Positions 4,560 through 51,152 of a stretch of 52,458 bases of DNA are shown here, in pieces. The notes under the pieces were generated by a model that was not told the origin of the DNA, made no database searches, and was given only the letters and a program-made list of their open reading frames with translations. The position numbers and the translations under genes are program-made. Origin of the DNA: a virus. The stretch lies in the IMG/VR virus record IMGVR_UViG_3300027754_000128, positions 1 through 52,458 of that record. One strand, given 5' to 3'. Positions within the stretch are counted from its first letter, which is position 1. Each line of letters begins with the position of its first letter.

Positions 4560-4942
4560 GCGTTCCACCGATCCTCGGCGCGCTGCTCGGCGCGCTGTTC
4601 TGCGGCGTCGTCCTCGTCGGCTTGCAGGTCATCGAGCGCCTGCTCGCACGCCTGTGCCTGGCCGTCCTCGCTTTCCAGCCAGTCGGCCGCGATGCTATCG
4701 AGCGTGCCTTGGGCGAGGTCGGCGTAGGCGCCGTCGAAGGGCGACGGCTTGCCGTCTTTGAGCGGCACCGCGCTGCCCCATTCGGCCATCGCGGCCTCTG
4801 CCGGCTGGCCGCCGGATGCGTAGGACGGCCCCTGCTCTGCAACGCGGGCGTGATAGGTGAACGTGATGCGGACATCGATCTCCGCGCCTTCGTCCGCGTC
4901 GCCGACCGGGATCGTGGCGTCGATCGTGTGGGTGCTGCTCAT
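4556..4942 (-). CDS. Acidic protein of unknown function
   Basis: 128 residues, strongly acidic (many Asp/Glu, ending EDDAAEQRAEQRAEDRWNA). The N-terminal half has alternating beta-like segments (IDVRITFTYHARV), the C-terminal third is helical. Start ATG at 4942 with GGAGG about 9 bases upstream; a GTG one codon earlier is possible. It overlaps the neighbour on both sides. The very acidic composition could suggest a DNA-mimic or protein-binding role, which is speculation. Confidence 0.7.
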   Translation of the reverse strand: MSSTHTIDATIPVGDADEGAEIDVRITFTYHARVAEQGPSYASGGQPAEAAMAEWGSAVPLKDGKPSPFDGAYADLAQGTLDSIAADWLESEDGQAQACEQALDDLQADEDDAAEQRAEQRAEDRWNA

Positions 4943-5154
4943 CACGCGGCCTCCAGTCCGAGATCGGAGGCGGAAACGGCGCGCGGCTGCGCCTCAACTT
5001 CCCGCTGAAGCATCTTTGCGATGCTCGCGGCATCCTTTGGGAACAGCCAGAATGTGGTTGTCACCATTGTTTTTCCGGCGTCATCGGACGCCCACAAGGA
5101 CAGTCCAATCTGACCTTTGTTCGATTGAGTGAGGTAGTTCAGCGAGGGCTTCAC
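4942..5154 (-). CDS. Small protein, function unknown
   Basis: 70 residues (MKPSLNYLTQSNKGQIGLSL...). GTG start at 5154 overlapping the upstream stop as GTGA. Contains a beta-rich first half (MVTTTFWLFPK) and a helical second half (ASIAKMLQREVEAQ). No signal peptide or membrane span. Shares the coupled-overlap organisation of the leftward operon. Confidence 0.65.
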   Translation of the reverse strand: MKPSLNYLTQSNKGQIGLSLWASDDAGKTMVTTTFWLFPKDAASIAKMLQREVEAQPRAVSASDLGLEAA

Positions 5155-5360
5155 GCGACATCTCCCTGGCGGTCGTTCATTGCGATGCTCGCGGCGCGGT
5201 GGGCGAGCAGAACGGCGTGCTGGCGGACGACCTGACGCTTGCTCTGGCAGAGCTGCTGGAGCGCGCGAACCAGCGTTTCGCCGATCGCGCCGGTAAACAC
5301 CGCACGCCGTGCGGCGAAGAGGGCGACCTCTTCCACTGAGGCGAGGGACAGGGCGTTCAT
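5151..5360 (-). CDS. Small helical protein, function unknown
   Basis: 69 residues, all helix by composition, with ARRAVFTGAIGETLVRALQQLCQSKRQVVRQHAVLLAHRAASIA in the middle (basic, Ala-rich). The start at 5360 overlaps the upstream stop by ATGA; a longer upstream reading frame exists but runs through the preceding gene. Second gene of the leftward operon. No recognisable family. Confidence 0.65.
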   Translation of the reverse strand: MNALSLASVEEVALFAARRAVFTGAIGETLVRALQQLCQSKRQVVRQHAVLLAHRAASIAMNDRQGDVA

Positions 5361-5593
5361 GCCGCCACCCGCATCGCGACGCCGGCTGCGTGGGCCTCGA
5401 GCATCTCGAGCGCGGCGGCGATCCGGTGGCCGGCGTAGACCTCCTGGCAGTCGGGCGCCTCGGCGATCATGTAGTGGCCGTGCCTGCGGGGCGTCCGGTA
5501 GATCGTGCCGATCCGCTGGCCGGCGTCGGTGACGACCTCGGCCGTGTCGGTCAGGCCGTCGGCGGCGGTGAAATTGAGCGGCTGAATGGTCAT
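5357..5593 (-). CDS. First gene of the leftward operon, function unknown
   Basis: 78 residues (MTIQPLNFTAADGLTDTAEV...). The ATG at 5593 is chosen because GGAGGG sits 7 bases upstream and the PL start point would fall near 5610; an in-frame ATG at 5668 would lie upstream of the promoter. The sequence looks like a small beta-rich fold (QRIGTIYRTPRRHGHYMI) followed by a helix. No family recognised. Confidence 0.7.
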   Translation of the reverse strand: MTIQPLNFTAADGLTDTAEVVTDAGQRIGTIYRTPRRHGHYMIAEAPDCQEVYAGHRIAAALEMLEAHAAGVAMRVAA

Positions 5594-5616
5594 GCTGTCC
5601 CTCCGTTGTTGGAAGG

Positions 5617-5646
5617 AGAGTACGCATAATGCGTCCGCATCGTCAA
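5617..5646 (-). promoter_or_regulatory. Early left promoter PL
   Basis: On the minus strand TTGACG (5646-5641), an 18-bp spacer and TACTCT (5622-5617). The spacer contains the operator at 5620-5634. This is nearly the same sequence as PR at 6424-6453 in opposite orientation. Transcription would begin near 5610, 17 bases before the first ATG. Confidence 0.75.
5620..5634. promoter_or_regulatory. Repressor operator OL1
   Basis: GTACGCATAATGCGT, a near-palindrome overlapping the -10 of PL. Its exact reverse complement occurs at 6436-6450 in PR. Such twin sites flanking the repressor gene are the expected targets of the S24-type repressor or the Cro-like protein. Confidence 0.8.
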
Positions 5647-5661
5647 ACGCAAAAAGCGTAC
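5647..5661. promoter_or_regulatory. Candidate second operator OL2
   Basis: ACGCAAAAAGCGTAC matches the operator ACGCATTATGCGTAC at 12 of 15 positions, with both half-sites intact. Its centre is 27 bp from OL1, just upstream of the PL -35. A weaker version (ACGCAAAAGGCGTTG, 6412-6426) sits in the corresponding place near PR. Confidence 0.55.
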
Positions 5662-5700
5662 ACCGCAAACAAAATGGTACGCCGCCAGAAAACCCTTAAA

Positions 5701-6387
5701 TTACTTGCGCTTACGGAAGGGCTGGTACTTTCCGATCACGAGGGCAATCAGGGCGATCTCCTCGTCTTCCGGTGGATTATCGGTATCCAGTTCAATCGGC
5801 CGCCATTTAGGGTCAGTCGAATCTGGTGCCAGGATCAGGATGTTGCCGCGCTTACGCAGTCGCTTGGCCGTCACCTCCCGTTGCCCCTGCTGAAAACGGC
5901 GCCGCTCGACAATCACGATGTCGTCTTCTGCGAACACAATGCCCGCGACGGCCTTGTCCACGCAGTGAAAGACATCCCCCGGCCCAGCAACACGGTTCAT
6001 CGACGTGCCGCGAACGATCAAGCCGTACTGTGAGTCAATTGGATAGCCGGCAGTTGGAGCTATCGGGAATTGCTCGAAGTCGTCGGCGTCCAGATCCGCG
6101 TCCAGGTCAAGCCACCGACCGGCCGCCACCTCACCGCGCGTAGGAACGGCGACCATCGCGCGCTGGGCCTTTTTCTGCGGCTGGGAACCTCCCTCTAGAA
6201 GCCACTCCCACGAAACGCTGAAGGCTCGCGCGTAGGCTTTCGCCATAGCCCGCTTAGGCACGCGCTGTCCGTTCTCGTGCGTCAAATAAGTAGACCGCAC
6301 CCAGCCAAAAGAGCGGGCGGCCTCTACTGCGGATTGGAACCCGGCTTCTTTGCGCGCCCACTTCAGACGTTCTGCTGGCGTGTTCAT
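5701..6387 (-). CDS. LexA/CI-type phage repressor (HTH plus S24 peptidase)
   Basis: 228 residues. N-terminal HTH at about 8-65 (ERLKWARKEAGFQSAVEAAR, then STYLTHENGQR). Linker cleavage site VAAGRW with Ala89-Gly90. Peptidase S24 catalytic Ser129 in RGTSMN and Lys175 in VTAKRL. It should hold PL and PR off in lysogens and self-cleave on RecA activation, so the prophage is likely SOS-inducible (known for the family). Start ATG at 6387 is the first residue before the HTH; upstream in-frame ATGs would cross the operators. There is no clear Shine-Dalgarno. Confidence 0.9.
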   Translation of the reverse strand: MNTPAERLKWARKEAGFQSAVEAARSFGWVRSTYLTHENGQRVPKRAMAKAYARAFSVSWEWLLEGGSQPQKKAQRAMVAVPTRGEVAAGRWLDLDADLDADDFEQFPIAPTAGYPIDSQYGLIVRGTSMNRVAGPGDVFHCVDKAVAGIVFAEDDIVIVERRRFQQGQREVTAKRLRKRGNILILAPDSTDPKWRPIELDTDNPPEDEEIALIALVIGKYQPFRKRK

Positions 6388-6423
6388 TAGGAACACATCG
6401 CACAGCCATCCACGCAAAAGGCG

Positions 6424-6453
6424 TTGACGGTGAGGACGCATTATGCGTACTGT
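6424..6453 (+). promoter_or_regulatory. Early right promoter PR
   Basis: TTGACG (6424-6429), 18-bp spacer, TACTGT (6448-6453). The operator 6436-6450 fills the spacer and touches the -10. The expected start point, about 6460, is at the ATG of the Cro-like gene (6461), so the mRNA may be leaderless. Confidence 0.75.
6436..6450. promoter_or_regulatory. Repressor operator OR1
   Basis: ACGCATTATGCGTAC, the exact reverse complement of OL1 (5620-5634). It lies between the -35 and -10 of PR, so bound repressor would block RNA polymerase. Confidence 0.8.
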
Positions 6454-6460
6454 CTCGGTC

Positions 6461-6703
6461 ATGATCACTTCGCCCTCTCAAGCAATCGAACTTCTCGGCG
6501 GCCACAAAAGCCTGTCTGGGCGCATCCATCGGCCTCTCACGACTGTCGCTTCTTGGGTGAAGCGGGATTCCATCCCCGTCGAGGTCTGGTCAAAGCTGAT
6601 CGACCTCGCGAAGGCGCGCGGCGTCGAAGGCGTCACTTACGAAACGCTCGCCCGCGCTCACGCGCCCGCTCGGCCCGGCAAGCGCAAGCGGCGTGCAGCA
6701 TGA
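6461..6703 (+). CDS. Cro-like HTH regulator
   Basis: 80 residues. SPSQAIELLGGHKSLSGRIHRPLTTVASWVKRDSIP is the layout of Cro/YdaS-like regulators: a helix, a second helix, then a recognition helix with TTVASW. The basic C-terminus (PGKRKRRAA) suits DNA binding. First gene downstream of PR, divergent from the repressor, as expected for a lytic-switch Cro. The start at 6461 fits the predicted transcription start; an ATG at 6443 would be inside the promoter. Confidence 0.75.
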   Translation: MITSPSQAIELLGGHKSLSGRIHRPLTTVASWVKRDSIPVEVWSKLIDLAKARGVEGVTYETLARAHAPARPGKRKRRAA

Positions 6704-7074
6704 AGGTCCGCGCCAAACAGAACGGACCGGAGCATATAGCCCTGTTGCGTCTTGGGCAGCGTCGGGCGCGGGAACGCCGCCTGAACGGCGAGGGTTTCAT
6801 CTACGCGGCAGAACTGCCCGGCACGGATATCATTAAAATCGGCTTTTCGCTCATGCCCGAAAAAAGAGTGCGGGGCGTCAGCATCCAAAACTACGCGAGA
6901 GCGCAGTTGCTGGCGAAGACACCCGGCACCGAACCCGCTGAGCGGGCGCTGCACAAGGTCCTCCGTGAACACTGCAGGCTCGACCTGCCTGGCTTCGAGT
7001 TCTACCCGCGCGCCATCCTGTCTCATCCGGCAATTCCTTCAGGGCTACGGGTGCCCGGCAAGCGTGCAGCGTGA
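6700..7074 (+). CDS. GIY-YIG/T5orf172-like nuclease domain protein
   Basis: 124 residues. The core FIYAAELPGTDIIKIGFSL (about 30-50), then RVRGVSIQNYARAQLLAKTPG and ERALHKVLREHCRLDLPGFEFYP matches the T5orf172 branch of GIY-YIG domains, where a Y-x(n)-IKIG pair leads and a conserved E/H-rich helix follows. A DNA endonuclease role is inferred. The start at 6700 overlaps the Cro-like stop by ATGA, and the gene ends with GKRAA, very like the Cro gene end. Confidence 0.75.
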   Translation: MKVRAKQNGPEHIALLRLGQRRARERRLNGEGFIYAAELPGTDIIKIGFSLMPEKRVRGVSIQNYARAQLLAKTPGTEPAERALHKVLREHCRLDLPGFEFYPRAILSHPAIPSGLRVPGKRAA

Positions 7075-29166: not shown

Positions 29167-29582
29167 TGTCCGTCGCCGCCTTCATCGCCGCTCGTGCGAA
29201 GCGCCCAGAACCGGCGCCGGAGAAGGCTGAGACCGAATCCGATGCCGCCGAGATCAAGGGCCTCGACAGCGTCATCAAGGCGATCGAGGGGCTGGGCGAG
29301 ATCCTGAAGGATCAGGCCAAGGCCGACGCCGAGGACGACAAGGCAGAGCGCGAGGCGATGGCGAAGGTCATGCAGGAGGTCGGGCAGGAATTGACGCAGA
29401 TCGTCCCGGCCATTGCCGCCGCTGTCGGTGCCGCCATCCAGGCGCGCGAGGCGCAGCAGGACGCGCAACTGAAGATGATCTGCGACGCGCTGTGCGCGAT
29501 GAAAGACGACACCGCTGCGGCACAGGATAAAACCAATGCGCTGCTCGAGCGCATCGCCGACTCTATGAAGGATATGGCCTGA
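29166..29582 (+). CDS. Helical coiled-coil virion-region protein
   Basis: 138 residues. Charged helix at 15-65 (EPAPEKAETESDAAEIKGLD...), then IVPAIAAAVGAAIQAREAQQDAQLK, which is an amphipathic or membrane-like segment, and another helix ending LLERIADSMKDMA. Likely structural accessory or chaperone for the internal core. Starts with TGATG overlap. Confidence 0.6.
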   Translation: MSVAAFIAARAKRPEPAPEKAETESDAAEIKGLDSVIKAIEGLGEILKDQAKADAEDDKAEREAMAKVMQEVGQELTQIVPAIAAAVGAAIQAREAQQDAQLKMICDALCAMKDDTAAAQDKTNALLERIADSMKDMA

Positions 29583-31978
29583 TGGGCGTTGTCATTCCCG
29601 ATGCTGCCGACTACGGCACCCCTGTCCCGCGCGCAGCGACGACCGTCCAGTCCTATGGTGTCGGCCAGCCTGTCCAGCAGGATGTCGCCGCATGGACCTA
29701 CGCCGCGCAGTCCGCCAAGGCCGCCGCCGATAGCGACGCCAAGGCGATGGAAGGCGTGGGCGTCGAGATTGCCAAGTGGTCCGACCAGCTCCAGACCACG
29801 CAGGCGCAGGACAGCCTCAACCAGTTGCGCGCACGCCGGCAGGAACTGACGACCGGCGACAACGGCTTTATGAAGGTGCAGGGCGGCAACGTCGTCAATC
29901 CGGCGGGCGGGCAGGGTACTTCGATCTACGAGACGTTCCCGACCCAGTTCCAGGGCCACGCCGACGACATTGGCTTGAAGCTCTCTGGCAAGGCCGCGAT
30001 GCTCTACAAGCAGGCGATGGCGGCCGAGATCACCGGCTTCAAGAGCGACGTTGCCCGGCACGGCCTTGCGGAGGGCGAGAAGTACCGCGGCGCCGTGTAC
30101 AAGGACTTGCAGACCCAGCTCGACAACAAGATCGCCTCCTCGAGCGACCCGGCCGAGGTCGACAAGGGGATCGCCGACAAGATCGCGTCAGCTACGCAGT
30201 ACGCAATCTCGATCGGCATGCCGGGCGCTGCGGCGGCAAAGGCTGCCGGTTCCGACGCTGCCATGCTGGTGATCCAGAAGGCGGTCAATACCGGCGACAG
30301 CGGCGCGGCGTCGGCTGCCCTCACGAAGTACGGCACCTACCTCGACGCCAAGGACCGCATCAGGGTCGACGGCCTGGTGAAGACGCTTGCAAATCAGGAC
30401 TCTGCGGTCTCCGAGGCCGGCGCCATTCGCGCCAGTGTACTGGGCGGCGGCACAGGCGGTGATCTGGACAACAATATCGGCAACATCACGACCAGCCAGT
30501 TCCAGTATTCTGGCGGCAAGGGCGCTCCAAAGGGAGCCTTTGAGACATTCCAGACGCCGGAACATGGCGTCGCTGCCGCCTATCATACGGTTCAAGCAAA
30601 GGCGAAGCAGAACGGCGGCACGATTTCGTTCATCGAACTGATCGGTGGCAACGGCAAGGTGAAGGGCTGGGCGCCGGCCGCTAACGGTAGTTCTGATCCA
30701 CTCCTCAAGGGCAACGACCCCAACTCCTATGCAGCGCGTCTTGCTGCGGCTGTCGGGCTGAAGCCAGGCGATGCCGTCCCCGTTGGGGATGATGCGAAGA
30801 TGCAAGCCATTCTTCGCATGATGAACGTACACGAGAAGGGTAAACAAACAGTCAAGGACGATGCCTTCGGCCGCGGCATTCAGTTGGCTAAGGGTGACAC
30901 GTCTGTTGTCGCCGCGCCCGCTGCCAAGCGTTCGTCAGACCCGCTCTTCGATGACGGGCCGGCTGTAGACCCGATGAGAGACCCGCTCGGCGGCAAAGAC
31001 AATGTAGTGGCGGGCCAGGAGAACGGGGCTCTCTACAAAGACCCCGATGCCCTGCTGTACCAACTCAACCAGCAGTTTGCCGCCATGACGCGCGCGAACC
31101 AGGAGCGTTTCGCCACCAACATCGGAAAGCGCACCCTAGTCCAGACGGAACTGGAACTCTGGCACACGGCGCAGAAGAAGCAGATCGAACAGATGCGCCT
31201 CGCGCAAAAGGTGAACCTGAACCAGGTGATGACGACCGGCGGTCCTGACGGCAAGGGGCCGACCCACGAGAAGCAGATCCCGACCGAGCTGTGGGCGCAG
31301 CTCTCGTTCCGCGAGCGCGAGAGCGTGACCAATATCATCAAGCACAATGCCAAAGGCACCGAGGCCGTGACCGACCAGCAGCACTGGTATGAGATCCAGC
31401 GCGGCCTGACGAGCGCCGACCCCGTGGAGCGCCAGAAGTGGGCCGACTACGACCTGTGGCAGTCGAAGGACAAGCTCGACAACAAGGATCTGCAGGAACT
31501 GGCGAAGATGCAGGGCGTCGTCCGCAGGGGCGATCCCGACAAGCAGACGACGCATGTCCGCAACATCAATCAACTGGTCGATGATACGTTGCTAAAGCTG
31601 AGGATCGACAGCACGCCCAAGGCCGGGTCGAACGATGCCACGAAGGCATACGAGTTCCGGCGCTTCGTGCAGGATCAAATCACCGCGCTTGAAGCGACAC
31701 AGCCCGGCAAGAAGGCAACCACCGAGCAGCAGCAGAATATCATCGACCGCGCGGCGCTCGACATCGTCATGAAGAAAGGCAGGCTCTGGGACGACACGAA
31801 GCCGCGCTACGCCCTTACCATCAAGGACATCCCCGCCGAGGACAAGACCAAGATCATCGACGCCCTGACGCGCAAGAACGCAGCAGAAGCCGCCGCCACA
31901 AAGACGCAACCCAAGGCAATCTCGGAGAGTGACATCATCGACGCATTCGCACGCAAGAACGCCCAGGCCCCGAAATGA
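29582..31978 (+). CDS. Internal virion protein with transglycosylase-like domain
   Basis: 798 residues. A domain at about 290-420 has NNIGNITTSQFQYSGGKGAP, FETFQTPEHGVAAAYHTV, then NGKVKGWAPAANGSSDPLLKGNDPNSYAARLA, the NNxGNI...F.tPe.G..a layout of peptidoglycan-degrading domains in phage structural proteins. The rest is helical (e.g. about 490-560). It probably opens a path through the cell wall during ejection, like T7 gp16. Overlaps its neighbours by 1-4 bases. Confidence 0.72.
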   Translation: MGVVIPDAADYGTPVPRAATTVQSYGVGQPVQQDVAAWTYAAQSAKAAADSDAKAMEGVGVEIAKWSDQLQTTQAQDSLNQLRARRQELTTGDNGFMKVQGGNVVNPAGGQGTSIYETFPTQFQGHADDIGLKLSGKAAMLYKQAMAAEITGFKSDVARHGLAEGEKYRGAVYKDLQTQLDNKIASSSDPAEVDKGIADKIASATQYAISIGMPGAAAAKAAGSDAAMLVIQKAVNTGDSGAASAALTKYGTYLDAKDRIRVDGLVKTLANQDSAVSEAGAIRASVLGGGTGGDLDNNIGNITTSQFQYSGGKGAPKGAFETFQTPEHGVAAAYHTVQAKAKQNGGTISFIELIGGNGKVKGWAPAANGSSDPLLKGNDPNSYAARLAAAVGLKPGDAVPVGDDAKMQAILRMMNVHEKGKQTVKDDAFGRGIQLAKGDTSVVAAPAAKRSSDPLFDDGPAVDPMRDPLGGKDNVVAGQENGALYKDPDALLYQLNQQFAAMTRANQERFATNIGKRTLVQTELELWHTAQKKQIEQMRLAQKVNLNQVMTTGGPDGKGPTHEKQIPTELWAQLSFRERESVTNIIKHNAKGTEAVTDQQHWYEIQRGLTSADPVERQKWADYDLWQSKDKLDNKDLQELAKMQGVVRRGDPDKQTTHVRNINQLVDDTLLKLRIDSTPKAGSNDATKAYEFRRFVQDQITALEATQPGKKATTEQQQNIIDRAALDIVMKKGRLWDDTKPRYALTIKDIPAEDKTKIIDALTRKNAAEAAATKTQPKAISESDIIDAFARKNAQAPK

Positions 31979-34900
31979 GCGGCCCCGACGAGCTCCAGCC
32001 CGCCGCTCCCGTTGACGACGGTCTGGCGCAACTGACGGCCGACCGCAATGCAGCCGATGTTCCGCCGCCGCCCACGCCGCCTGCCAGTGCGCCTGGCCCC
32101 GCCGTCACGAACGAGTACGATGCTCTTCTGGCAGAGGCGCCCGCGAAGCCGGTCAACGAATACGACGCCGTCGTGGAGGATCTGTCCCGCGAGCGCAAAC
32201 AGACTGTGCGCGGGAACCTCATTGGCGCGCAGGCGACCACGCCAGAAGCCGCCGCGAAGTCTCTCGACCTGTCGCGCAAGACCGGCCTGCCGGCTGACAT
32301 GGTCGAGCGAAACTTGCCCAAAGTCGAGGCCGATCACAGGCTGAACGAATACGACGCCATCCTCAACGCTTCGCCCAAGACGCAGACATGGATCGCGGGC
32401 GACCCGACGAACGCCAAGGTGGCGGGCGATGAGGTCAAGAGGTTGGCCGAGATCGAAGCCATCCTGAAGCCAAGGAACATGTACGACCGCAACAGGCCGA
32501 GCAAGGCCTCGCGCTCGATCGACAGCGAGTCGGCGGATTGGGAGGCGACGGCGTTCGGTCGTGCGGGCGGTATCGTCTATGATAACAAGGCGCCCGCCGC
32601 CGCTCCGCTCTACCAGTCGCAGTGGATGTCTGGCGTCGAGAATATGGCGCAGGGCTTCAACAAGATGTCGAACCTCAATATCGCCCGCGATATTCGGACG
32701 TTCGACGCGATCGACCAGGGTAAGCCTGTCAATACGGCTGATGATCCCTATGGCTACAAGGACATGTCGAGTGACCAGCGCGCCCAGACGCGCACGCTCG
32801 CCGAGGTCCAGATCGTCAAGAACGTCGCGGCTCTCAAGCGGTCGACCGCCTTCGTCGCCGATCTGCCGCGCAACCAGAACGTCCAGCCGTTCTTCGATGC
32901 CCTCGATGATGTGCAGGCCAAGGATATGCTTTCCGTTCTGACGGATGCTCTCGGCAAGATGTCGGCGGGGATGAATGGCGCCCCGCAGGCTGGCACTGCT
33001 GGCCCTTCGCCATTGGCCGCGGCCGGCAAGATATTCGCGTCCGATTCGCTGGGTATCATGCAGCAGCTTGCGGTGGAAACGACGCCCAACATGCTCCCGA
33101 TCATCGCGGGTTCGATCGTGGGTGGTCCTGTCGGCACTTTCCTGGCATCGCAAGCTGTCGATTTCCCGTCGCGAACCGACGACTGGATCAAGCAGGAACT
33201 GGCGAAGGAAAACAAGACCGGCGTCGAGTTCATTAATGTCAACGATCCCGAGGCCGTGCAGGCATATCTGCGCGCCAACCCCGCCTTCGCCGAGAAGGCG
33301 CAGAGGATGGGATATGCTGGATCATTCGGCCCGTCTGCTGTCGACGCCGTCTCGTTCGGAGCGACCCGCCCGTTCAAACGCGGCGCAGGTTTCGCCGCGA
33401 ATACCGGACGAGTGGCCGGCAACATCGCGATGGATACCGGCCTTGAAATGGTTGGTGAGGCCGCCGGGCAGATCATCAGCGGACAGGACGAGATCAAACT
33501 CAGTGAGATTGTCGCCGAGGGATTGGGCGCGTTCCCGCATGGCGCCTCCAATACCGTTGTCGCAACGGCGCGGGAAGCATCCCGCGCCAGTACCGAGGCC
33601 AAGACCGAGGCCGCCGTCAAGGAGATCAAGGCGACCATCACGGCCGCCAACGAGTTCCTGACCGACCTGCGGACGCACGTCGCGGAGACGGAGACGCTGA
33701 CGCTCGATGACCTTGTCGACAAGGTGCAGGGCAGCACCCTCCACAAGCTGTCGCCCGAGAAGATGAAGGACTTCCTCGAGTCGCTGTCTCCTGACGAGCA
33801 GAAGGCCGACGTGTTCATCTCGTCGGATGCGGTCAGCACGCTGTTCCAGGACATGTCGGTCCTGGAGCGCGATACGCTGGCCGAGAACCTCGGCATCACC
33901 GAGCAGCTCAATTCGCTGGGCCTCAACGCCAACACCGACATCGTGATCCCGCTGCCGGTCTACCTGACGGCGATCGGCGATGCTCACAAGGCGTGGCGCG
34001 ACGACGTTCGCATGGACTTCATGGGGTTCTCCAACCGGGAGGCCATTGCGGAGGGCAAGGCCAAGGCCGAGGAGACCGCCGCTGCGGTGGCGCGCTTCGA
34101 GGAGCAGGTCGCTGCCGGCGTGCAGGATAGCCCGCAGGAGATCGTCTACCAGCAGGTGTTGGGGATGCTGAAGGCGAACGGCTTCACCAATGAGCAGGCT
34201 TCCCAGCAGGCTGCCTATGCTGCCTCGCGCTACCATGCTCGTGCGGTTCGCAGCCCGCAGATGTTCACCGACGCCCTGGATGCGTTCACGCAGTACCCGT
34301 TCACCATCCGCTCGCACCTGGGCGACGGCATCCGGGTGATCGGCCCTGACCAGCTCGACATCATGCTCGACAGCATCCGGTCGGGCAAAGATCCGGTGAT
34401 CACGCCGGCCTTCGCCCACATCGAGGCGCGCAAAGCTGCGGCCGAGGCAGAGTTGTCGACGGTCCTCGGCGAGGCACCTGTCGTCAAGACGCCCAAGCAG
34501 ATCGCGGACGAACGCAAGGCTGCCGCGCTGGGCGTGTTCCAGGCTCGCCGTCAGGAACTGGCAGACTGGCTCGAGAGCCGCGGCCTCGACCTCAAGACGG
34601 CGACCAACGCGCAGATCCGCGCCGAGATCGAGAAGGTCCAGAAGGGGACCAGCTACAACCAAGACGATGTTCTGGTTGTTAAGCAGCCCCTTTCCGACAG
34701 TTTGATCATGGTCGCCCAGCGTGGCGATCGGGCGACTGGTAATCGGCTTCTCCTGTCTACTGAAGAGAAGGCGGCCATTGCCGCGTCTGTCGGGCCGAGC
34801 GGTCTATCGGTTGCAGAAATCACCGCGACCGTTCGCAAGCACAAACTGGCCCATCCGCCGGCACAGAACTGGGAGCCTCTGGTCTTCATCAAGGCCCGCC

Positions 34901-37900
34901 TCGACAAAAAGGGCAAGCCTGAGTTCATGTACAAGTTGGTTCCCTATAGCTTCATCAGGGACAACGACGGCAAAGAGATTCAGCCATCGGAGAAGAAATA
35001 CGCGGGCAGGGTCAAGGCGCTCGGCGACGCTATTGCGGAAGAGGTTCGTGGCATCTATCGCCGCGCCGCTGCTGGCGACAAGAACGCCCAGAACATCCTG
35101 GCCCAAGCCGGCTGGTACAAGGCAATGCGTGCCAGGCTGCGCCAAGAGTTCGGTGGCCTGGGTGACCTGTTTGCCGACGCTCTCGGAGCCACGTCGCCCA
35201 ATACGCCCGTGCGCGGGAACTGGGAGAATGCGGTCGACAGCTTGCGCCGCGCGAGCCGTGGTGACTTTGATGCACTGATGCCGCAGTGGGTAGCCTGGTC
35301 TGAGAATATCGACCGGCTCGAGACCGACCTCCGCGCGTTCGTAAACGAGCAGCGCGCCAAGAAGCAGGCCTCGAAGAGCGAGCCCTGGATGGACAGCGAT
35401 AAGCCGCAGACCTTGAAGTCCATCAAGGAGATGCAGGAATACATCGATAAGAGGAAGGCTCTGTCTGAGGCGCGTGAACTGCCGCCCGACCTCATGCCGA
35501 CCAAGGAGAGTGGCGCACAGTACGGGTTCAACGGTCGCAACGTGGTGCGCGCCATGCTCGACCTGTGGCGCACAATCAAGGACGCTGATCCCGATATCGG
35601 ACGTAGCGGCACTGCGCCCAAGGCGCTCAATTTCTCTGGCAACCTCATTGGGTTCCGGGGCAAGGCGACGATCGATGTCTGGGCCGCGCGCCTGCTGCAG
35701 CGTCTGGCCGGCAAGCGCCGCATACCCAGCATGGCAGAGATAGCCGTCTCCGGTGAGATGCTTGCTGATGCTTCGACAACGGGCCAGTTCGGCTTCGGGC
35801 AGGACACTTTCGCGCATGCCGTTGCCGTCATCAGATCCGACAGCGAGATGAGCCAGGACTCTGCTCTCGCAAAAATCAATGACGACGACCTACAGGCTGT
35901 TGTCTGGTTCATCGAGAAAGAGGTCTGGACGGTCAACAACTGGACAAGCGTCTCAGGGGAGGGAGGCTCGTTCGAGTTGGAAGCCAACCTCACCGGCACG
36001 GCCAAGCAGGCCCGTGTTCGCGAGCTGCGTAAGATCATCGACAGCTCCCCGTCCGCGGCCGATGTGAAGGCGGTGGCCGGCGCCGACGCAGTCTCGGCAA
36101 AGGTCGAGGCGTGGGATGCTGAACACAAAGCGGAACTCGATGAACTGGGAGAGATCAACCAGCGCCTCGCGTCGGATACCCTGTCGAAGAAGGAAGCATC
36201 CGGTCTAAAGAAGCGCGCGGCAGAACTGCAGAAGGCCACTAAGCTGCCGAAAGAAATCGCGCAGGAGATGCGCGACGTTGCCAACGGCCAGCGACGGATT
36301 GACGAGCGCGCTGCCCAGAAGGTGTTGGCGCGGGCGGAACTGGCAACCCTTGAGCGTCCCGTCGATCGCTACGTCGGCGGTCTGTCCACGCAGATGTCGA
36401 TCGACAACCAGGGGGTGGACTACGTCCCGACCGACGCCGACATGGCCCGCTTGGGTGATGCCATCCGGCTGGCGATCTACGAGAACGATGCCACTGCAAA
36501 CGTGCTGGCCTCCAAGGCCCTGCCGACCGAGGGCCGCTACGGCAGCGTGGAGCGTTCGCTCGACCTCGAGATTGTGGCTCGCGAGGGCTACGATCCCAGC
36601 ACGGTCTGGGCCGAGATGCTGCGCCAGGCGCAGGAAGCGCGGCAGGACTCGACCTTCCTCTCCCGCGTTCTGCGGGATGGCGAGGAGATCGATTACACCA
36701 AGCACCGGCCCGGCATTGAAATATACTTCCGCGATGCCGCCGCCGCCCAGCAGCTTGAGAAGATGTTGGCCGACCTGGCGAAGGAGGGGGTGTCCTTCCT
36801 GACGGTCTCTGTCGACGGGCGCCGGATGCCCGGTTATGTGGCCGGTGCCATGCCGGCAGCGGTCGGCGTGCGCCTGCAGTACGTCCCAGAGTTCGAGCAA
36901 AGGTACGGAATAGACGACCTTTCGGGCTTGGATGACGCGGCCATTGCGGATAAGATGAAGGCCAAAGGCGACGAACTGGACGACGTTGCGATGCGCGTCG
37001 CCACCAATGTTTCAGGCGTCTCGTTTGCTGGCGTTTTCTGGCATGAGACACAGGTGGCATTCAGCCATCAGTATCAGGAGAAGATCGATGGTCTCGCAAC
37101 TGGAAGAACTGAAGCGGAAGCTGGCGCGACTGGACCCGGAGGGTGGGTCGGACAATCCGTTCGTGCAGGGCTTGCGGATGCAGATCGCCAGTCGCGAGAA
37201 GCCGCGAGCGGAGAACCCGGTGGGCAACGAGAGCCGGTGGTCGGCGGGGATGAGGGCAGCACCGGACGCGCCGGAAAAGGCGTAACTCTCAACCAGTCCG
37301 TCTACCACGGCGGCCCGCGCATCTTCGACCGCTTCAGCCTCGACTATATTGGAACGGGAGAGGGCGCGCAGGCTTTCGGTTGGGGATTATACTTCGCGTC
37401 GAAGAAGGCTCTCGCGGCGCACTATCGCGACAAGCTATCTCCCGCTGGCCCCGGTGCCGTCGAGTATCAGGGCAAGATGGTCCTCACCTCGGACGGCAAG
37501 CCTCTTCGCGCGCGGCCCGAGTGGCTGAAGGATTGGGGCAACGATCTGCAGGCGCTGATCGAGGTTGCAGTCGACGGCAACATGACATTGCCGGAGGCCA
37601 TTGCCGAGGTCCGCGCCGCCGCTAAGCAGGTCGGGTTTATCCGTCGCTTTCTGGGCTACGGCTTTAACGAGCGGTTCCTGCAGGCGATCCTCGACAAGGG
37701 CTACACCATTGGCGACTCGCAGAAGGGCCGCCTCTACACCGTCGAGATCCCCGACGATGGCGCGTACCTGCTGTGGGACAAGCCGCTCAGTGAGCAGAGC
37801 AAGGTTCTTCGCGACGCACTGCCCGCACTGATCCAGAAATACGGCGGTGACCTCTCCAAGATCATTGGCGCCAACGGCCAACTGCGCGACAGCGTGACGG

Positions 37901-40900
37901 GCGAGTCCGTCTACCGCGCACTGTCGGCGGCTATGGCGAACAAGCCAATCGATGAAAGCGGCATGGCGGGCTGGACGCGGGTCCAGAATACCGTCAACGA
38001 CCGAATGGCGAACGACAAAGCCGCCTCCCTCGCCCTGCTTGCCGCAGGCATCCCCGGCATCAAGTACCTCGACGGCTCGTCGCGGCGGAAGGGCGATGGC
38101 GATCACAACTATGTGCTGTTCGATGACAGCCTCGCCAAGATCACGCAGTACGAGCAAGACAAACGCGGCTCGATCACGTTCGGCGATACGTCCGCCACGG
38201 TCGACCTCTACCAGGCCCGCAACCCGTCCACGCTGCTGCATGAGATGTGGCACAAGTGGTTCGGCGAGTTCGAGTTCGATGTCGCCCACCTCGGCGCCAG
38301 CGAGCAGATGCGGGCGGACTTCAAGGTGCTGCTCGACTTCGTCGGCTCGACGGACGGTCGCATTGGACTGAGCGCCTACGAGGGCGGGCGGGTGAATACA
38401 CTGCGCGCCAAGATCGACGCCACGGGCGAGAAGAGCCTCGACGGCGCGGAAGCCGAGGAGTGGGCCGCGCTGAAGGTCCGCATCGAGCAGAACGAGAAGC
38501 TGGCCCGTGCCGGCGAGGTCTACCTCATGGAGGGCAAGGCCCCGTCCGACGCCCTCCGCAAGGTGTTCCGCGCCTTCAAGTCGTGGCTGCTGGGCGTCTA
38601 CCGCAATATGCGGAATCTGCAGGCGCCGATCTCTCCCGAGGTCCGCGCGGTGTTGGACCGCATGCTGGCGACCGACGAGGAGATAGCCTCGCTGAACGAT
38701 CGGCAGGGGCTGAACCCCGTGCTGGAGTACGCCAAGGAACTGATGAGCAAAACTGAGTTCGCCGCCTACACGAAGAAGACCGCGGACGTACTCGAGGACC
38801 AGCAGGACGCACTGTTCGCCAAGGTATCGGGCGACCTCCGCAAGCAGGCCAAGGGCGAATACGTCAAGGAACGCGCCAAGATCCGGGGCGAGGTCACCGA
38901 CGAGATGATGGCGGAACCCGGCCAGCAGGCGCTGCACTTCCTAAAGAAGGGCGTCATGTCTGCCGGCGAGACGCCTGAGATACTGAAGGGCCGCAAGTTG
39001 TCCCGCGCCGGCCTGATAGAACTGATCGGGCAGGAGGGGCTGAACACGCTCCCGGCGGGCATCTATGCGGAAGAGGGGCTTTCCCCCGACGAGATGGCGC
39101 CGCTGTTCGGGCTGGGCAACGGCATGGAGTTGGCCGAGCGCCTGATGCAGATCGCCGCCGAGGACAAGGCGTGGAAGGACAAGGGCGGGCGCGGCACCGC
39201 CGTCCAGTCGCGGATCGCAGAGGAGACCCAGAGGCGGCTCACAGAGGCCCTGGGAGACCCGCTGAACGACGGCAGCATCGAAGCCGAGGCTTGGGCCATC
39301 GTCCACTCGGACAAGCGCCTGGACCTCATGGCAGTCGATCTGCGGATGCTTGCGCGCAAGGCCGGGCAGACCGGCGCGGTGAGCATCGTGGACATCCAGA
39401 ACTGGGCGGCCGAGCAGATCGGCGGCATGTCGTCGTATCAGGCGACACAGGTCGCGCGCTACCAGCGCGCCGAGCGGATGGCGGGCCAGCAGGTCCAGAA
39501 GGCCCTCGTGAAGGGCGACTGGGTGGCTGCGTTCAAGGCCAAGCAGGACCAGGTCTACAACTTCGCGCTCTACAAGGAGGCGATGAAGGCGTCCGACGAT
39601 GCTGGCAAGATCACGGCCTACCTCGACAAGCTGGCCGGCGCCCGCAACATCAAGGCCCTCGACCAGAACTATCTCGACTCCATCCACGGTCTCCTCGAGG
39701 AGTACGACTTCAAGAAGCGCAGCGGCACTCTGCTGACCGATCGCACCCGCTTCAACGCCTTGGTCGCGGAGCAGGCGTTGATGGGCGTCGAGGTGCAAGA
39801 GCCGCCTTACCTGAAGGGGGCCGAGCGCAAGCACTTCTCGCAGATGACGATGGATGAATTGCGCGCCGTCTACGAGGCAATCAAGCAGCTCGATCGCCTT
39901 GGCCGAGACATCAAGAAGGTGATGCTCGACGGCAAGAAGGTCGCGCGCGATGCTGTGCTGACCGAGATGGAGGCGACTGCTGCTGCCGGCGTGCAGCGCG
40001 GCTCCAGTCTCAGCAATCTCGGCAAGACCGAGATCCAGAAGAGCGTCGGCAAGGCCAAGCATATCTTGCGTCTGGGCAACGCCAGCCTGCTCAAGATCGA
40101 GCGGCTGCTGGAGTTCGCGGACGGCGATGTGACCGGCAACGGTATCTTTTCGCGCGCGATCTACCGGCCCATCGCCAACGCTGCCCACGCCACCAACGAT
40201 GAGCGCGTCGATAACAGCAAGCAGTACAAGGTGATCTACGAGAAGGTGCCGCTCGAGCAGCGCAATGCCTGGTCGACAATCCACACGCTTCCCGAGCTTG
40301 GCGGCAGGAAGCTCTCAAAAGAGAACATCATCTCGATAGCTCTCAACATGGGCAACGAATCGAACCTCGAGAAGCTGATCAAGGGCTATGGCTGGAGCTA
40401 CGAGGGTGTTCGCGCGGTCGTGAACAAGTACCTCACGAAGGAAGAGTGGAGGTTCGTTCAGGACAAGTGGGACTTGATGCAGTCTCGCTGGCCTGCCTAC
40501 GCCGCGATGATCCGCGACATCGAGGGCGTCGAACCTCCCAAGATCGAGGCCGTCCCTCTCGAGACACCGTTCGGAACGCTGCCCGGCGGCTACATGCCGG
40601 TCCAGTATGACCGCAACGAGAGCCTGGAAGCACAAAAGATCGGCGAGGCGCAGGACAGTGCGTTGCTGCAGGGCATGGCAATATCGCCCCGCGCCAATGT
40701 ACCGTCCACGAAATCTGGATCGTCCATCGAGCGCACCGGCTTCACTGGTCCCATCCTGCTGGAACTGAGTGTCATCGGTAAGCATCTGGACGAGGTCGCC
40801 CACGACACCCACCACCGTCGTGCCGTGGCGGACGTTTTCAAGATCATCTCAAACGACCGCTTCCGCAAGGCCATCCAGTCGCGGCTCGGCGTCGAGTACG

Positions 40901-42045
40901 AGGCAACCTTCATGCCGTGGTTGATCCGCGTGGCTAACGAGGCGCGCGTAGCCAACGTCGAGCTGGCCGGGCCTGACTACATGATGCGGGCGCTGCGGGT
41001 GAACGTGACGCAGATGGCGATGGGCCTGCGCGTCTCGACCATGGTGCAGCAGGTCGCGGGCTTTGCCGCATCGGCTGCGAATCTGGGCGCCAAGGATCTG
41101 GGCTCCGGCTTCTGGGAATACATCCAGAACCCCAAGGCCGCCGCTCGCGAGGTCTACGCGAAGTCGGGCGAGATGCGCCACCGCGCCAACAACCTCGAGC
41201 GCGACATCAAGGCCAACCTCGACAAGTTCCGCGGGAGTACCAAGAGGATCTCCCGCGCGCGGGACGACATCGGACGGTTTGCCTTCCGCGGCATCGCGCT
41301 GATGGACCTCGCGGTGTCGATCCCGACGTGGCTGGGCGCCTACAAGCAGGGCCTGACCAAGGGCATGCTCGAGGCTGATGCCATTGCCTACGCCGACAAG
41401 ATGGTGCGCGACACGCAGGGTGCCGGCGGCGTCAAGGATCTGTCGGCCTTCCAGGGTGGCGGCGGCGAGGGCTGGAAGCTCCTCGGCATGTTCTATTCGT
41501 TCCTCAACGTCTACTACAACGCGCAGGCCCGCATGCTCGAGGCCGCGCGCAAGCCCGGCAAGACCTTCTCCGAGCATGTCGACCTCTGGTGGATGGCGAC
41601 CATGTGGATGGCCGTGTCGCCGCTGTTGGCCGCCGCCGTGTCGGGGCAGGGACCGGACGACGACGAAGACCCGCTCTACTGGGCCATGCGGACGGTGGGC
41701 TTCGGCGCCTTTGCCGGCATCCCGGTCGTGCGCGATGCAATGAGTACGATGTCCCGCGAGATGGGCGGCAAGCCAACGGCCGGCTTCCAGATGTCTCCCG
41801 TGACCGGGCCGATCTCCGGGTCCACGCGCCTGGTGAAGGATTTGATCAACCTCGCGAGCGGCGAGGATGTCAGCAAGAACTTCACCAAGAACACCTTCAA
41901 CGTGATTGGCGGCTTCACCGGCCTGCCAACAGGGCAGATCGGCGTGACCTCGCAGTTCCTGTGGGACACGCTCTACTCCGGGGCAGAAAACCCCGAGAAC
42001 ATTCTGGAATGGCTCCGCGGCCTCACGTTCGGGCCCAAGAAGTAG
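31975..42045 (+). CDS. Giant polyvalent ejected virion protein (3356 aa)
   Basis: By far the largest gene, in the place of the largest internal core protein. Segments I can see: N-terminal repeats of NEYDA (residues ~43-125); a Gly/Ala hydrophobic region near 370-400; large helical regions; a central domain with WYKAMRARLRQEFGGLGDLF (~1045); an ADP-ribosyltransferase-like segment from VYHGGPRIFDRFSLD to AFGWGLYFASKKALA (Y1777/H1778); and a zinc-peptidase-like HEMWH at 2089-2093. The C-terminus has hydrophobic MFYSFLNVYYNAQ (~3172) and WWMATMWMAVSPLLAAAV. The gene is open without a stop throughout. The segment at about 1705-1770 has unlike codon use and contains a second frame (37088-37285). 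Confidence 0.85.
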   Translation: MSGPDELQPAAPVDDGLAQLTADRNAADVPPPPTPPASAPGPAVTNEYDALLAEAPAKPVNEYDAVVEDLSRERKQTVRGNLIGAQATTPEAAAKSLDLSRKTGLPADMVERNLPKVEADHRLNEYDAILNASPKTQTWIAGDPTNAKVAGDEVKRLAEIEAILKPRNMYDRNRPSKASRSIDSESADWEATAFGRAGGIVYDNKAPAAAPLYQSQWMSGVENMAQGFNKMSNLNIARDIRTFDAIDQGKPVNTADDPYGYKDMSSDQRAQTRTLAEVQIVKNVAALKRSTAFVADLPRNQNVQPFFDALDDVQAKDMLSVLTDALGKMSAGMNGAPQAGTAGPSPLAAAGKIFASDSLGIMQQLAVETTPNMLPIIAGSIVGGPVGTFLASQAVDFPSRTDDWIKQELAKENKTGVEFINVNDPEAVQAYLRANPAFAEKAQRMGYAGSFGPSAVDAVSFGATRPFKRGAGFAANTGRVAGNIAMDTGLEMVGEAAGQIISGQDEIKLSEIVAEGLGAFPHGASNTVVATAREASRASTEAKTEAAVKEIKATITAANEFLTDLRTHVAETETLTLDDLVDKVQGSTLHKLSPEKMKDFLESLSPDEQKADVFISSDAVSTLFQDMSVLERDTLAENLGITEQLNSLGLNANTDIVIPLPVYLTAIGDAHKAWRDDVRMDFMGFSNREAIAEGKAKAEETAAAVARFEEQVAAGVQDSPQEIVYQQVLGMLKANGFTNEQASQQAAYAASRYHARAVRSPQMFTDALDAFTQYPFTIRSHLGDGIRVIGPDQLDIMLDSIRSGKDPVITPAFAHIEARKAAAEAELSTVLGEAPVVKTPKQIADERKAAALGVFQARRQELADWLESRGLDLKTATNAQIRAEIEKVQKGTSYNQDDVLVVKQPLSDSLIMVAQRGDRATGNRLLLSTEEKAAIAASVGPSGLSVAEITATVRKHKLAHPPAQNWEPLVFIKARLDKKGKPEFMYKLVPYSFIRDNDGKEIQPSEKKYAGRVKALGDAIAEEVRGIYRRAAAGDKNAQNILAQAGWYKAMRARLRQEFGGLGDLFADALGATSPNTPVRGNWENAVDSLRRASRGDFDALMPQWVAWSENIDRLETDLRAFVNEQRAKKQASKSEPWMDSDKPQTLKSIKEMQEYIDKRKALSEARELPPDLMPTKESGAQYGFNGRNVVRAMLDLWRTIKDADPDIGRSGTAPKALNFSGNLIGFRGKATIDVWAARLLQRLAGKRRIPSMAEIAVSGEMLADASTTGQFGFGQDTFAHAVAVIRSDSEMSQDSALAKINDDDLQAVVWFIEKEVWTVNNWTSVSGEGGSFELEANLTGTAKQARVRELRKIIDSSPSAADVKAVAGADAVSAKVEAWDAEHKAELDELGEINQRLASDTLSKKEASGLKKRAAELQKATKLPKEIAQEMRDVANGQRRIDERAAQKVLARAELATLERPVDRYVGGLSTQMSIDNQGVDYVPTDADMARLGDAIRLAIYENDATANVLASKALPTEGRYGSVERSLDLEIVAREGYDPSTVWAEMLRQAQEARQDSTFLSRVLRDGEEIDYTKHRPGIEIYFRDAAAAQQLEKMLADLAKEGVSFLTVSVDGRRMPGYVAGAMPAAVGVRLQYVPEFEQRYGIDDLSGLDDAAIADKMKAKGDELDDVAMRVATNVSGVSFAGVFWHETQVAFSHQYQEKIDGLATGRTEAEAGATGPGGWVGQSVRAGLADADRQSREAASGEPGGQREPVVGGDEGSTGRAGKGVTLNQSVYHGGPRIFDRFSLDYIGTGEGAQAFGWGLYFASKKALAAHYRDKLSPAGPGAVEYQGKMVLTSDGKPLRARPEWLKDWGNDLQALIEVAVDGNMTLPEAIAEVRAAAKQVGFIRRFLGYGFNERFLQAILDKGYTIGDSQKGRLYTVEIPDDGAYLLWDKPLSEQSKVLRDALPALIQKYGGDLSKIIGANGQLRDSVTGESVYRALSAAMANKPIDESGMAGWTRVQNTVNDRMANDKAASLALLAAGIPGIKYLDGSSRRKGDGDHNYVLFDDSLAKITQYEQDKRGSITFGDTSATVDLYQARNPSTLLHEMWHKWFGEFEFDVAHLGASEQMRADFKVLLDFVGSTDGRIGLSAYEGGRVNTLRAKIDATGEKSLDGAEAEEWAALKVRIEQNEKLARAGEVYLMEGKAPSDALRKVFRAFKSWLLGVYRNMRNLQAPISPEVRAVLDRMLATDEEIASLNDRQGLNPVLEYAKELMSKTEFAAYTKKTADVLEDQQDALFAKVSGDLRKQAKGEYVKERAKIRGEVTDEMMAEPGQQALHFLKKGVMSAGETPEILKGRKLSRAGLIELIGQEGLNTLPAGIYAEEGLSPDEMAPLFGLGNGMELAERLMQIAAEDKAWKDKGGRGTAVQSRIAEETQRRLTEALGDPLNDGSIEAEAWAIVHSDKRLDLMAVDLRMLARKAGQTGAVSIVDIQNWAAEQIGGMSSYQATQVARYQRAERMAGQQVQKALVKGDWVAAFKAKQDQVYNFALYKEAMKASDDAGKITAYLDKLAGARNIKALDQNYLDSIHGLLEEYDFKKRSGTLLTDRTRFNALVAEQALMGVEVQEPPYLKGAERKHFSQMTMDELRAVYEAIKQLDRLGRDIKKVMLDGKKVARDAVLTEMEATAAAGVQRGSSLSNLGKTEIQKSVGKAKHILRLGNASLLKIERLLEFADGDVTGNGIFSRAIYRPIANAAHATNDERVDNSKQYKVIYEKVPLEQRNAWSTIHTLPELGGRKLSKENIISIALNMGNESNLEKLIKGYGWSYEGVRAVVNKYLTKEEWRFVQDKWDLMQSRWPAYAAMIRDIEGVEPPKIEAVPLETPFGTLPGGYMPVQYDRNESLEAQKIGEAQDSALLQGMAISPRANVPSTKSGSSIERTGFTGPILLELSVIGKHLDEVAHDTHHRRAVADVFKIISNDRFRKAIQSRLGVEYEATFMPWLIRVANEARVANVELAGPDYMMRALRVNVTQMAMGLRVSTMVQQVAGFAASAANLGAKDLGSGFWEYIQNPKAAAREVYAKSGEMRHRANNLERDIKANLDKFRGSTKRISRARDDIGRFAFRGIALMDLAVSIPTWLGAYKQGLTKGMLEADAIAYADKMVRDTQGAGGVKDLSAFQGGGGEGWKLLGMFYSFLNVYYNAQARMLEAARKPGKTFSEHVDLWWMATMWMAVSPLLAAAVSGQGPDDDEDPLYWAMRTVGFGAFAGIPVVRDAMSTMSREMGGKPTAGFQMSPVTGPISGSTRLVKDLINLASGEDVSKNFTKNTFNVIGGFTGLPTGQIGVTSQFLWDTLYSGAENPENILEWLRGLTFGPKK
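37088..37285 (+). CDS. Nested out-of-frame ORF inside the giant gene
   Basis: 65 residues in +1 relative to the giant frame: MVSQLEELKRKLARLDPEGG... FVQGLRMQIASREKPRAENP. It has AGGAG 7 bases before its ATG and about four fifths G/C in third positions by eye, versus about half for the host frame there. The host frame at this place is a low-complexity Gly/Ala/Glu linker. This looks like a true small gene overprinted or trapped by fusion of two larger genes. Confidence 0.5.
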   Translation: MVSQLEELKRKLARLDPEGGSDNPFVQGLRMQIASREKPRAENPVGNESRWSAGMRAAPDAPEKA

Positions 42046-49801: not shown

Positions 49802-49815
49802 AACATACCTGGAAC

Positions 49816-49835
49816 TTTCTCCCCCATTCCTCCCC
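49816..49835. repeat. Integrase arm-site candidates, left pair
   Basis: TTTCTCCCCC at 49816-49825 and TTCCTCCCC at 49827-49835, 11 bases apart. They lie about 115-125 bp from the att core. The same pair with the same period recurs at 50012-50032. Confidence 0.55.
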
Positions 49836-49908
49836 TAGTGTTTTGGTCTTGTTCTGTCCCGGCGGGGCAGTTCCCCACAGGGAGCCGGAATCTACGAAGG
49901 ACCGAAAA

Positions 49909-49930
49909 CCCAATGTTTATTGGGAAAAAA
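49909..49930 (-). terminator. Weak terminator for integrase transcript
   Basis: CCCAAT (49909-49914), loop GTTT, ATTGGG (49919-49924). Read on the minus strand the hairpin is followed by TTTTCGG. The stem is only 6 bp. It would end minus-strand transcription coming from int. Confidence 0.45.
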
Positions 49931-49975
49931 TGGTGGGCGCTGTAGGGATTGAACCTACGACCCCACCCGTGTGAA
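49931..49975 (-). other. attP core: 3' half of a tRNA-Val (CAC)
   Basis: On the minus strand the sequence contains an anticodon loop TTCACAC (49975-49969), a T-arm GTAGG-TTCAATC-CCTAC, the acceptor strand AGCGCCC and A-CCA at 49931-49933. The 5' acceptor strand is absent and the anticodon stem is broken at 31-39, so it is not an intact tRNA. The D-arm side (AATCAGCGGG) still resembles a tRNA. Best read as the phage attachment core restoring a host tRNA-Val(CAC) gene on integration. Confidence 0.82.
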
Positions 49976-49998
49976 CGGCGTTCTGCCCGCTGATTTCA

Positions 49999-50985
49999 TT
50001 AGACAATTCGCTTTCTCCCCCGTTTCTCCCCCATTAGAATCACGACCCCACGGTCAGGCGTTACCGGCGATCGGTGGTGAACGTAGCGGCCGGCAGATCG
50101 TTCGTCGCGCCACAGTCCGCGCTCGGCGATGGCGCGCATATCGTATCCCAGCGCCCGCAGATCGGTCGCCATTGCGTGCCTCGACTGGTGTGGCGTGTAG
50201 GTGACCTTCAGGCGGGCGCACAGGGGCTTCAGCCACCTGTAGACGTTGTGCCGGTCACCCCAGGGGAAAACGCGCCCAGAGGGCAAATGCGGGGCGCTGG
50301 CGAGCATTGCTACCAGTTCGGGCGACAGACCTATCTCACCGATGTCATCCGTCTTGGTGGAGCCGACGCGGGCAGTGGCGGCCGGAAGGTCGAAGTCCTC
50401 GCGGCGCAGGCGCAGGCTGTCGGTGATCCGCTGGCCTGTCTCATACAGCCAGACGAGGAACAGGTGCTTGTGTCCGGTCGTGTTCGCCAACAACAGCCGC
50501 ATCGTGTCAGCGGCGACAGGCCGGCGGGGCGAGCGGCGGGATACCTTCAGCCGGCGGTGGCGGCGGTCGGCGCACCATCCTTGCTCGGCGGCGAAGTGCA
50601 GGATCGAGGAGGCGGGGCCAATCACAGCGCGGTTCTTGTTGCTGTCGCTTGTGCGGGGGCAGAGCGCGTGCGCTGCAGTCGTGAGGTCGGAGCCGATCAT
50701 ATCGCCCACAAGCTTGTCGCCAAAGAACCGCACCAGCCGGTCGATATAGGCGAGGTCTTGCTTGCCTAGCCGCTTGCCCTGAAGGAAGGCGTGGGCGGCC
50801 TCGCGGAACGAGACTACCGCGCCAGGCTCACGACCTTTGATAGCGGCGAAGAACTGTTCGGCTTCTTTCTTTGCATCTGCGAGTTTCGTCGCTGCCAGTA
50901 CTTTCTCAACTTGTCGTCCGTTACTTGGCCCGCGAACAACGAAGGTCCGGTTGCCTTTGCGGGAACCGGGCGCGTAGAACTGCAT
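49999..50985 (-). CDS. int: Tyrosine-recombinase integrase
   Basis: 328 residues. Catalytic residues in order: Arg186 (ETGQRITDS), Lys211 (GSTKTDD), His266 and Arg269 (PHQSRHA), Trp292 (GLWRDE) and the nucleophile Tyr301 (AGRYVHH). The N-terminal region (FREAAHAFLQGKRLGKQD) is the core-binding SAM-like domain. The start at 50985 has AAGGAG 9 bases upstream; longer versions overlap the excisionase frame more. Its 3' end contains the right arm-site repeats, next to attP. Confidence 0.92.
   Translation of the reverse strand: MQFYAPGSRKGNRTFVVRGPSNGRQVEKVLAATKLADAKKEAEQFFAAIKGREPGAVVSFREAAHAFLQGKRLGKQDLAYIDRLVRFFGDKLVGDMIGSDLTTAAHALCPRTSDSNKNRAVIGPASSILHFAAEQGWCADRRHRRLKVSRRSPRRPVAADTMRLLLANTTGHKHLFLVWLYETGQRITDSLRLRREDFDLPAATARVGSTKTDDIGEIGLSPELVAMLASAPHLPSGRVFPWGDRHNVYRWLKPLCARLKVTYTPHQSRHAMATDLRALGYDMRAIAERGLWRDERSAGRYVHHRSPVTPDRGVVILMGEKRGRKRIV
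50012..50032. repeat. Integrase arm-site candidates, right pair
   Basis: TTTCTCCCCC at 50012-50021 and again at 50023-50032, 11-base period. The pair lies within the last codons of int (encoding GEKRGRK). Together with 49816-49835 it flanks the attP core, as arm-type binding sites do. Confidence 0.55.
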
Positions 50986-51152
50986 GCGGCGCGCTCCTTG
51001 GCTTTGAGTGTTTCGATGTCCGCGTCCTCGAGCCTGGCGCGGCGGCCGGTGCCGATCGTGGCGATACCGTGCCGGGCCAGCGCCCGCGTCAATGTACGAC
51101 GGGACCATCCCATGTGAACAGCGGCGGCGGTCAGGGTGATCGGCTCACTCAT
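50814..51152 (-). CDS. xis: Excisionase-like HTH protein
   Basis: 112 residues. ITLTAAAVHMGWSRRTLTRALARHGIATIGTGRRARLEDADIETLKA is the excisionase/MerR-like winged helix (HTH, then a wing with GTGRRARLE). It overlaps int in another frame by 172 bases, much longer than in lambda. The C-terminal part is basic and low in complexity. ATG at 51152 overlaps the stop of the small membrane-protein gene. A directionality factor is the likely role. Confidence 0.72.
   Translation of the reverse strand: MSEPITLTAAAVHMGWSRRTLTRALARHGIATIGTGRRARLEDADIETLKAKERAACSSTRPVPAKATGPSLFAGQVTDDKLRKYWQRRNSQMQRKKPNSSSPLSKVVSLAR

Follow-up and report, generated by a model that had tools for sequence, protein, structure and literature searches.

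The stretch of virus DNA analysed here (the window: 52,458 nt, positions 1-52,458 of IMG/VR record IMGVR_UViG_3300027754_000128) carries a tyrosine integrase gene (int) and, running from its last codons to beyond its 3' end, a region at 49814-50032 that we interpret as the attachment site (attP) of a temperate phage. An earlier note on this DNA had placed an attP within a tRNA-Val(CAC) sequence here, with paired repeats on both sides. The features of the locus are as follows.

49814 to 49836, minus strand: putative distal arm pair, GGGGAGGAATG and GGGGAGAAAGT; on the plus strand, TTTCTCCCCC at 49816 and the degenerate TTCCTCCCCT at 49827
49931 to 49975, minus strand: attP core, 45 bp, the 3' part of tRNA-Val(CAC) from anticodon loop to CCA; 53 bp identical to the host tRNA locus L012
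49969 to 49975, minus strand: anticodon loop TTCACAC of tRNA-Val(CAC), putative 7-bp overlap (strand-exchange) region, where identity with the host attachment site (attB) begins
49999 to 50985, minus strand: tyrosine integrase gene, 328 aa, start ATG at 50985, with PF00589, PHROG integrase and fold matches
50011 to 50032, minus strand: putative integrase-proximal arm pair, GGGGGAGAAAC and GGGGGAGAAAG, within the last int codons, the copies in different codon frames
50814 to 51152, minus strand: excisionase-like helix-turn-helix (HTH) frame, putative recombination directionality factor, overlapping the int 5' end at 50817-50985 (169 nt) in the +1 frame

The core at 49931-49975 reads TTCACACGGGTGGGGTCGTAGGTTCAATCCCTACAGCGCCCACCA on the minus strand and is present once in the window. 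A pattern search of bacterial genomes for host tRNA loci gave at least 120 stretches, and in at least 100 alphaproteobacterial genome stretches the 45-bp core is part of tRNA-Val(CAC). The search that the earlier note had proposed, for tRNA-Val(CAC) genes ending in these 45 bases, thus bears out its reading of the core as anticodon loop to CCA of that tRNA. Nearly all of the matches listed have the whole gene, in the form GGGCGCNTAGCTCAG...CACACCC-TTCACAC-GGGTGGGGTC..., and the hosts among them include Sphingomonas, Sphingobium, Azospirillum, Reyranella and Chelativorans. Host loci match the attP from the first T of TTCACAC onward and diverge immediately before that T. The longest identity to the window among the matches listed is the 53 bp of L012, running beyond CCA; the L012 genome is placed in the same order as Reyranella soli, which suggests, without proving it, that the phage host is a member of that order.

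A stretch carrying the 3' half of a tRNA might also be expected at the edge of a prophage, as attL or attR, or in a phage that carries a decayed tRNA gene. This explanation was rejected as highly improbable: there is only one core, ARAGORN reports no tRNA in the window and the tRNA 5' half is absent beside the core, phage-type genes lie on both sides within the record, and the pairs described below flank the core on both sides where attL or attR would have one pair each.

The integrase matches PF00589 (E=6e-13) and the PHROG integrase family. An upstream ATG at 51108 was dismissed as the int start, its product being too long compared with relatives. The tyrosine recombinase catalytic domain retains its conserved residues, with R186, K211, R269 (in HQSRH), W292 and Y301 invariant among four integrases, and the predicted fold matches the tyrosine recombinases lambda Int, Tn1549 Int and P2 Int. 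In lambda Int, an N-terminal segment of the beta-beta-beta-alpha type binds the arm sites. The AlphaFold2 model of the window integrase has a predicted N-terminal beta-beta-beta-alpha arrangement (strands at residues 2-4, 15-21 and 24-30, helix at 35-49) with a predicted local distance difference test score (pLDDT) of about 70. Full-length lambda Int is among the fold matches, with a template modelling score of only about 0.42, and the model is too weak for superposition of the N-domain alone.

The earlier note had described pairs of TTTCTCCCCC with an 11-bp period flanking the core to left and right. Exact plus-strand copies stand at three of the four places (49816-49825, 50012-50021 and 50023-50032), and no other exact copy occurs in the 52 kb; the fourth, at 49827, is TTCCTCCCCT, which shares 8 of 10 letters with TTTCTCCCCC. 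The right pair does lie within the int frame, as had been stated. The description of the arrangement as symmetrical is not apt, since all four copies are direct repeats, and counted from the first T of TTCACAC they stand at -57/-46 and at about +140/+151.

Given a true attP core, the G-run pairs could alternatively bind some other factor (an excisionase or a host bending protein) or could be chance G-runs in a phage rich in G+C. The number of one-mismatch copies of TTTCTCCCCC over the whole window is indeed unremarkable (5 found against 2.8 expected, not significant alone). The paired arrangement itself is less easily obtained by chance. GGGG-N7-GGGG occurs in the 52 kb, on both strands, only at the two pair sites; in an open scan of lags 7-25, lag 11 ranked top on both flanks; and 0.04% of dinucleotide shuffles of the flanks produced such a pair on each side. 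None of 20,000 synonymous recodings of the last 24 int codons reached the similarity of the proximal pair. The corresponding figures were 0.15% for the related virus contig L002 and 11% for the virus record L132, so that this evidence is strong in the window and in L002 and weak in L132. As the two proximal copies stand in different codon frames, they are repeated as DNA and not as peptide.

Further evidence comes from other att sites, for which the comparison loci were L002, L003, L132 and L134 (virus records), L027 (a Reyranella genome) and L012 (the host tRNA). In L002, L132 and L134 this tRNA 3' half likewise adjoins a tyrosine integrase gene. The L002 integrase shares 63% identity with that of the window, and its contig has the same tRNA core with GGGGAAAAAGA and GGGGAAAATCT within the int end at -58, and GGGGGAAGATC and GGGGGAAGCGG on the far side at +164. 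Two records with more distant integrases and the same tRNA also have pairs, GTGGAAAATCC and GTGGAATGGGA inside int in L132 and GTGCAAAATCC and GCGCAGAGGAT outside int in L003, and across the core each has a similar pair. In the attP of L003 (481-551), host tRNA identity reaches the 5' anticodon stem (CACCC), which is why ARAGORN reports a tRNA-Val there, and the integrase is 2.4 kb off.

The Reyranella locus L027 holds, at 3095-6984, a 3.8-kb decayed element between two cores, and in it the C-terminal part of an integrase that matches the window integrase at 70% identity. A full tRNA is followed by GGGGAAAATCT and GGGGCAAACGA at +140 (the attL side); at the other end, 3.8 kb on, GGGGCAAAGCA and GGGGCAACTTT at -59 (the attR side) are followed by a second core without the 5' half. 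This is as expected of a decayed insertion at tRNA-Val(CAC) with one pair left at each end. The attB is of the tRNA-gene, anticodon-loop class, with an identical block of 45-53 bp from TTCACAC to the 3' end and a restored tRNA in L027.

Period-11 pairs at the int end were also found with other tRNAs, in L127, L214, L215 and phiAX1, an Acetobacter phage in culture. Related integrases in genomes of the Reyranella order (L125-L131) mostly use other sites and serve therefore only as a wider comparison. What is kept across relatives is a loose motif, roughly G(G/T)G(G/C) followed by an A-rich stretch, together with the spacing; the spacing is conserved while the letters drift along with the integrase. 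The recurrence of 11-bp pairs at corresponding positions with changed letters supports the reading of the G-rich pairs as arm-type integrase sites, which on this comparative evidence would lie on both flanks of the attP core, as in lambda-type systems. It also makes a different binding factor or chance G-runs unlikely: L002 and the two ends of L027 repeat the positions and the period, to either side of the core, and like pairs on both sides are not expected of a one-sided accessory factor.

Several observations weigh against the interpretation as a whole. The exact letters are not common to relatives, and the exact tandem of the proximal pair, GGGGGAGAAACGGGGGAGAAA, has no match in viral_contigs, so that the check proposed earlier, conservation of TTTCTCCCCC near other att sites, fails for the exact tandem and holds for the loose motif and its spacing. 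No clear pair is seen in L134, which uses the same tRNA and has an integrase of 28% identity, a point that also favours another role for the G-runs, as does the fact that their assignment as arm sites comes from sequence comparison. No intact prophage of this phage was found in any host; the L027 element, which has both junctions, is decayed and comes from a metagenome-assembled genome. The integrase model is of moderate confidence (mean pLDDT 72, N-domain about 70). Taking these points with the host tRNA genes, the virus records and L027, we put at roughly 90% the probability that a temperate phage using the tRNA-Val(CAC) of an alphaproteobacterium has its attP at 49814-50032, with a bivalent integrase and paired arm sites.

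Such an attP most likely works in a lambda-like manner. The catalytic and core-binding domains of a bivalent integrase would occupy the core around the 7-bp loop TTCACAC, while the small N-terminal domain would bind the arm sites, of which each side has two, spaced by one helical turn. Strand exchange would take place within the 7-bp anticodon loop, where the cleavage positions are predicted to lie. Integration would join the host tRNA 5' half to the 3' half borne by the phage, leaving a whole tRNA at attL because the phage 3' half replaces that of the host, and attR would retain int, the proximal pair and the spare core. The HTH protein, whose frame lies immediately upstream of int, probably serves to promote excision and so may control direction.

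Similar arrangements are known from mycobacteriophages. Putative arm-site pairs of 10-11 bp flank the attP core in Giles, L5 and clusters J and K, and in the two clusters that core lies in a tRNA or tmRNA (PMC3706429, PMC3203893). The Cluster J attP (Omega, BAKA) resembles that of the window, and HTH genes upstream of int have been proposed as directionality factors there; it differs in its tRNA-Leu, its letters (TGCATAC..) and the distance of about 100 bp between core and int end, and the available part of that report describes no arm sites within the 3' coding end of int (PMC3706429). Two 11-bp repeat pairs, one per core side, are shared with the attP of Cluster K (CrimD, Pixie) and of Giles and L5, and the Giles and L5 pairs are in direct orientation as in the window, whereas in CrimD the pairs are inverted relative to each other and the core lies in the tmRNA, 5' of int (PMC3203893). 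Acetobacter phage phiAX1 (LC644973) has a related integrase (29% identity over 73%), a period-11 pair, GTGCAGAACTC and GTGCAGTCC, at the int end followed by a tRNA-Val-like core, and an annotated small coding sequence overlapping the int start; its core differs in having the anticodon GAC by inspection, and the att site is not treated in the available part of the phiAX1 paper. The integrative element ICEMlSymR7A (attP/IntS/RdfS) is comparable in having an alphaproteobacterial tyrosine integrase that needs several arm-type motifs to integrate, and it has an HTH directionality factor, but there are five sites with the consensus TGKTGGTATC, and its rdfS heads a conjugation operon and is not beside intS (PMC11963761). 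The window attP is ordinary in kind and matches the mycobacteriophage attP architecture; its letters, host group and target are new.

The HTH frame upstream of int weakly resembles the NCBIfam excisionase domain TIGR01764, with E=5e-4, which falls short of the family cut-off. The window and the 15 other loci examined all have a stop in the +1 frame 169-211 nt past the int start, and when int was synonymously recoded a +1 stop at 160-215 nt arose in 1-39% of trials, depending on the locus. Tail ends seen include KVVSLAR, NVVALRNR, VITLPPRAPR, VIGFPTPGSR and VLPFPSAGRR. A C-terminal motif, defined after the first ten loci had been viewed, is present in 9 of those 10 and in at most 0.34% of recoded sequences; the ten are related and so are not ten independent trials. 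Among six held-out loci the strict motif was found in one, and a relaxed form, picked afterwards, in four. Synonymous change in int appears lower within the overlap, with 24 of 64 fourfold-degenerate sites differing there against 156 of 275 elsewhere (P=0.008), as counted over three non-overlapping pairs picked after the counts were known. In phiAX1 the overlapping frame was annotated as a gene by the depositors; it extends 181 nt into the int start and ends KKVSMANAPL. A literature search found no description of such an HTH/int overlap.

We consider it fairly probable that an HTH/int overlap of about 170-210 bp is a feature of this integrase family, with both frames under selection and the C-terminal tail of the putative excision factor (often ending in a motif like V-V/I-x-F/L/M) coded by the DNA of the arm-binding domain. 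Together with the arm sites in the last int codons, both ends of int would then carry a second message. The overlap is a lead and not a finished result, and merits separate study.

As to the phage itself, no DNA resembling the window was found in the phages collection; with the integrase as query, L002 was the sole match in viral_contigs and genome_contigs gave none. The phage has a head-tail connector (PHROG 332), and its late region includes one open frame of 3356 aa (31975-42045, plus strand), beside which 29582-31978 has a part-length match to a PHROG labelled endolysin (phrog_873). The connector proteins of the window and of a 29-kb virus contig (L145, IMGVR_UViG_3300006805_000116) share 99% identity, which indicates that near-identical phages have been sampled elsewhere; no integrase match was found in that 29-kb record. 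The relatives found through the connector protein either lack a related integrase or end before the attP.

The locus provides an int-attP cassette for a tRNA-Val(CAC) gene common to Reyranella, Sphingomonas and Azospirillum-like bacteria. Its putative arm sites and those of its relatives form a set whose letters change by integrase, useful for understanding how N-terminal domains select their sites. If confirmed, the overlap of the HTH frame with int would link the decision to integrate or excise to a single stretch that codes in two frames.
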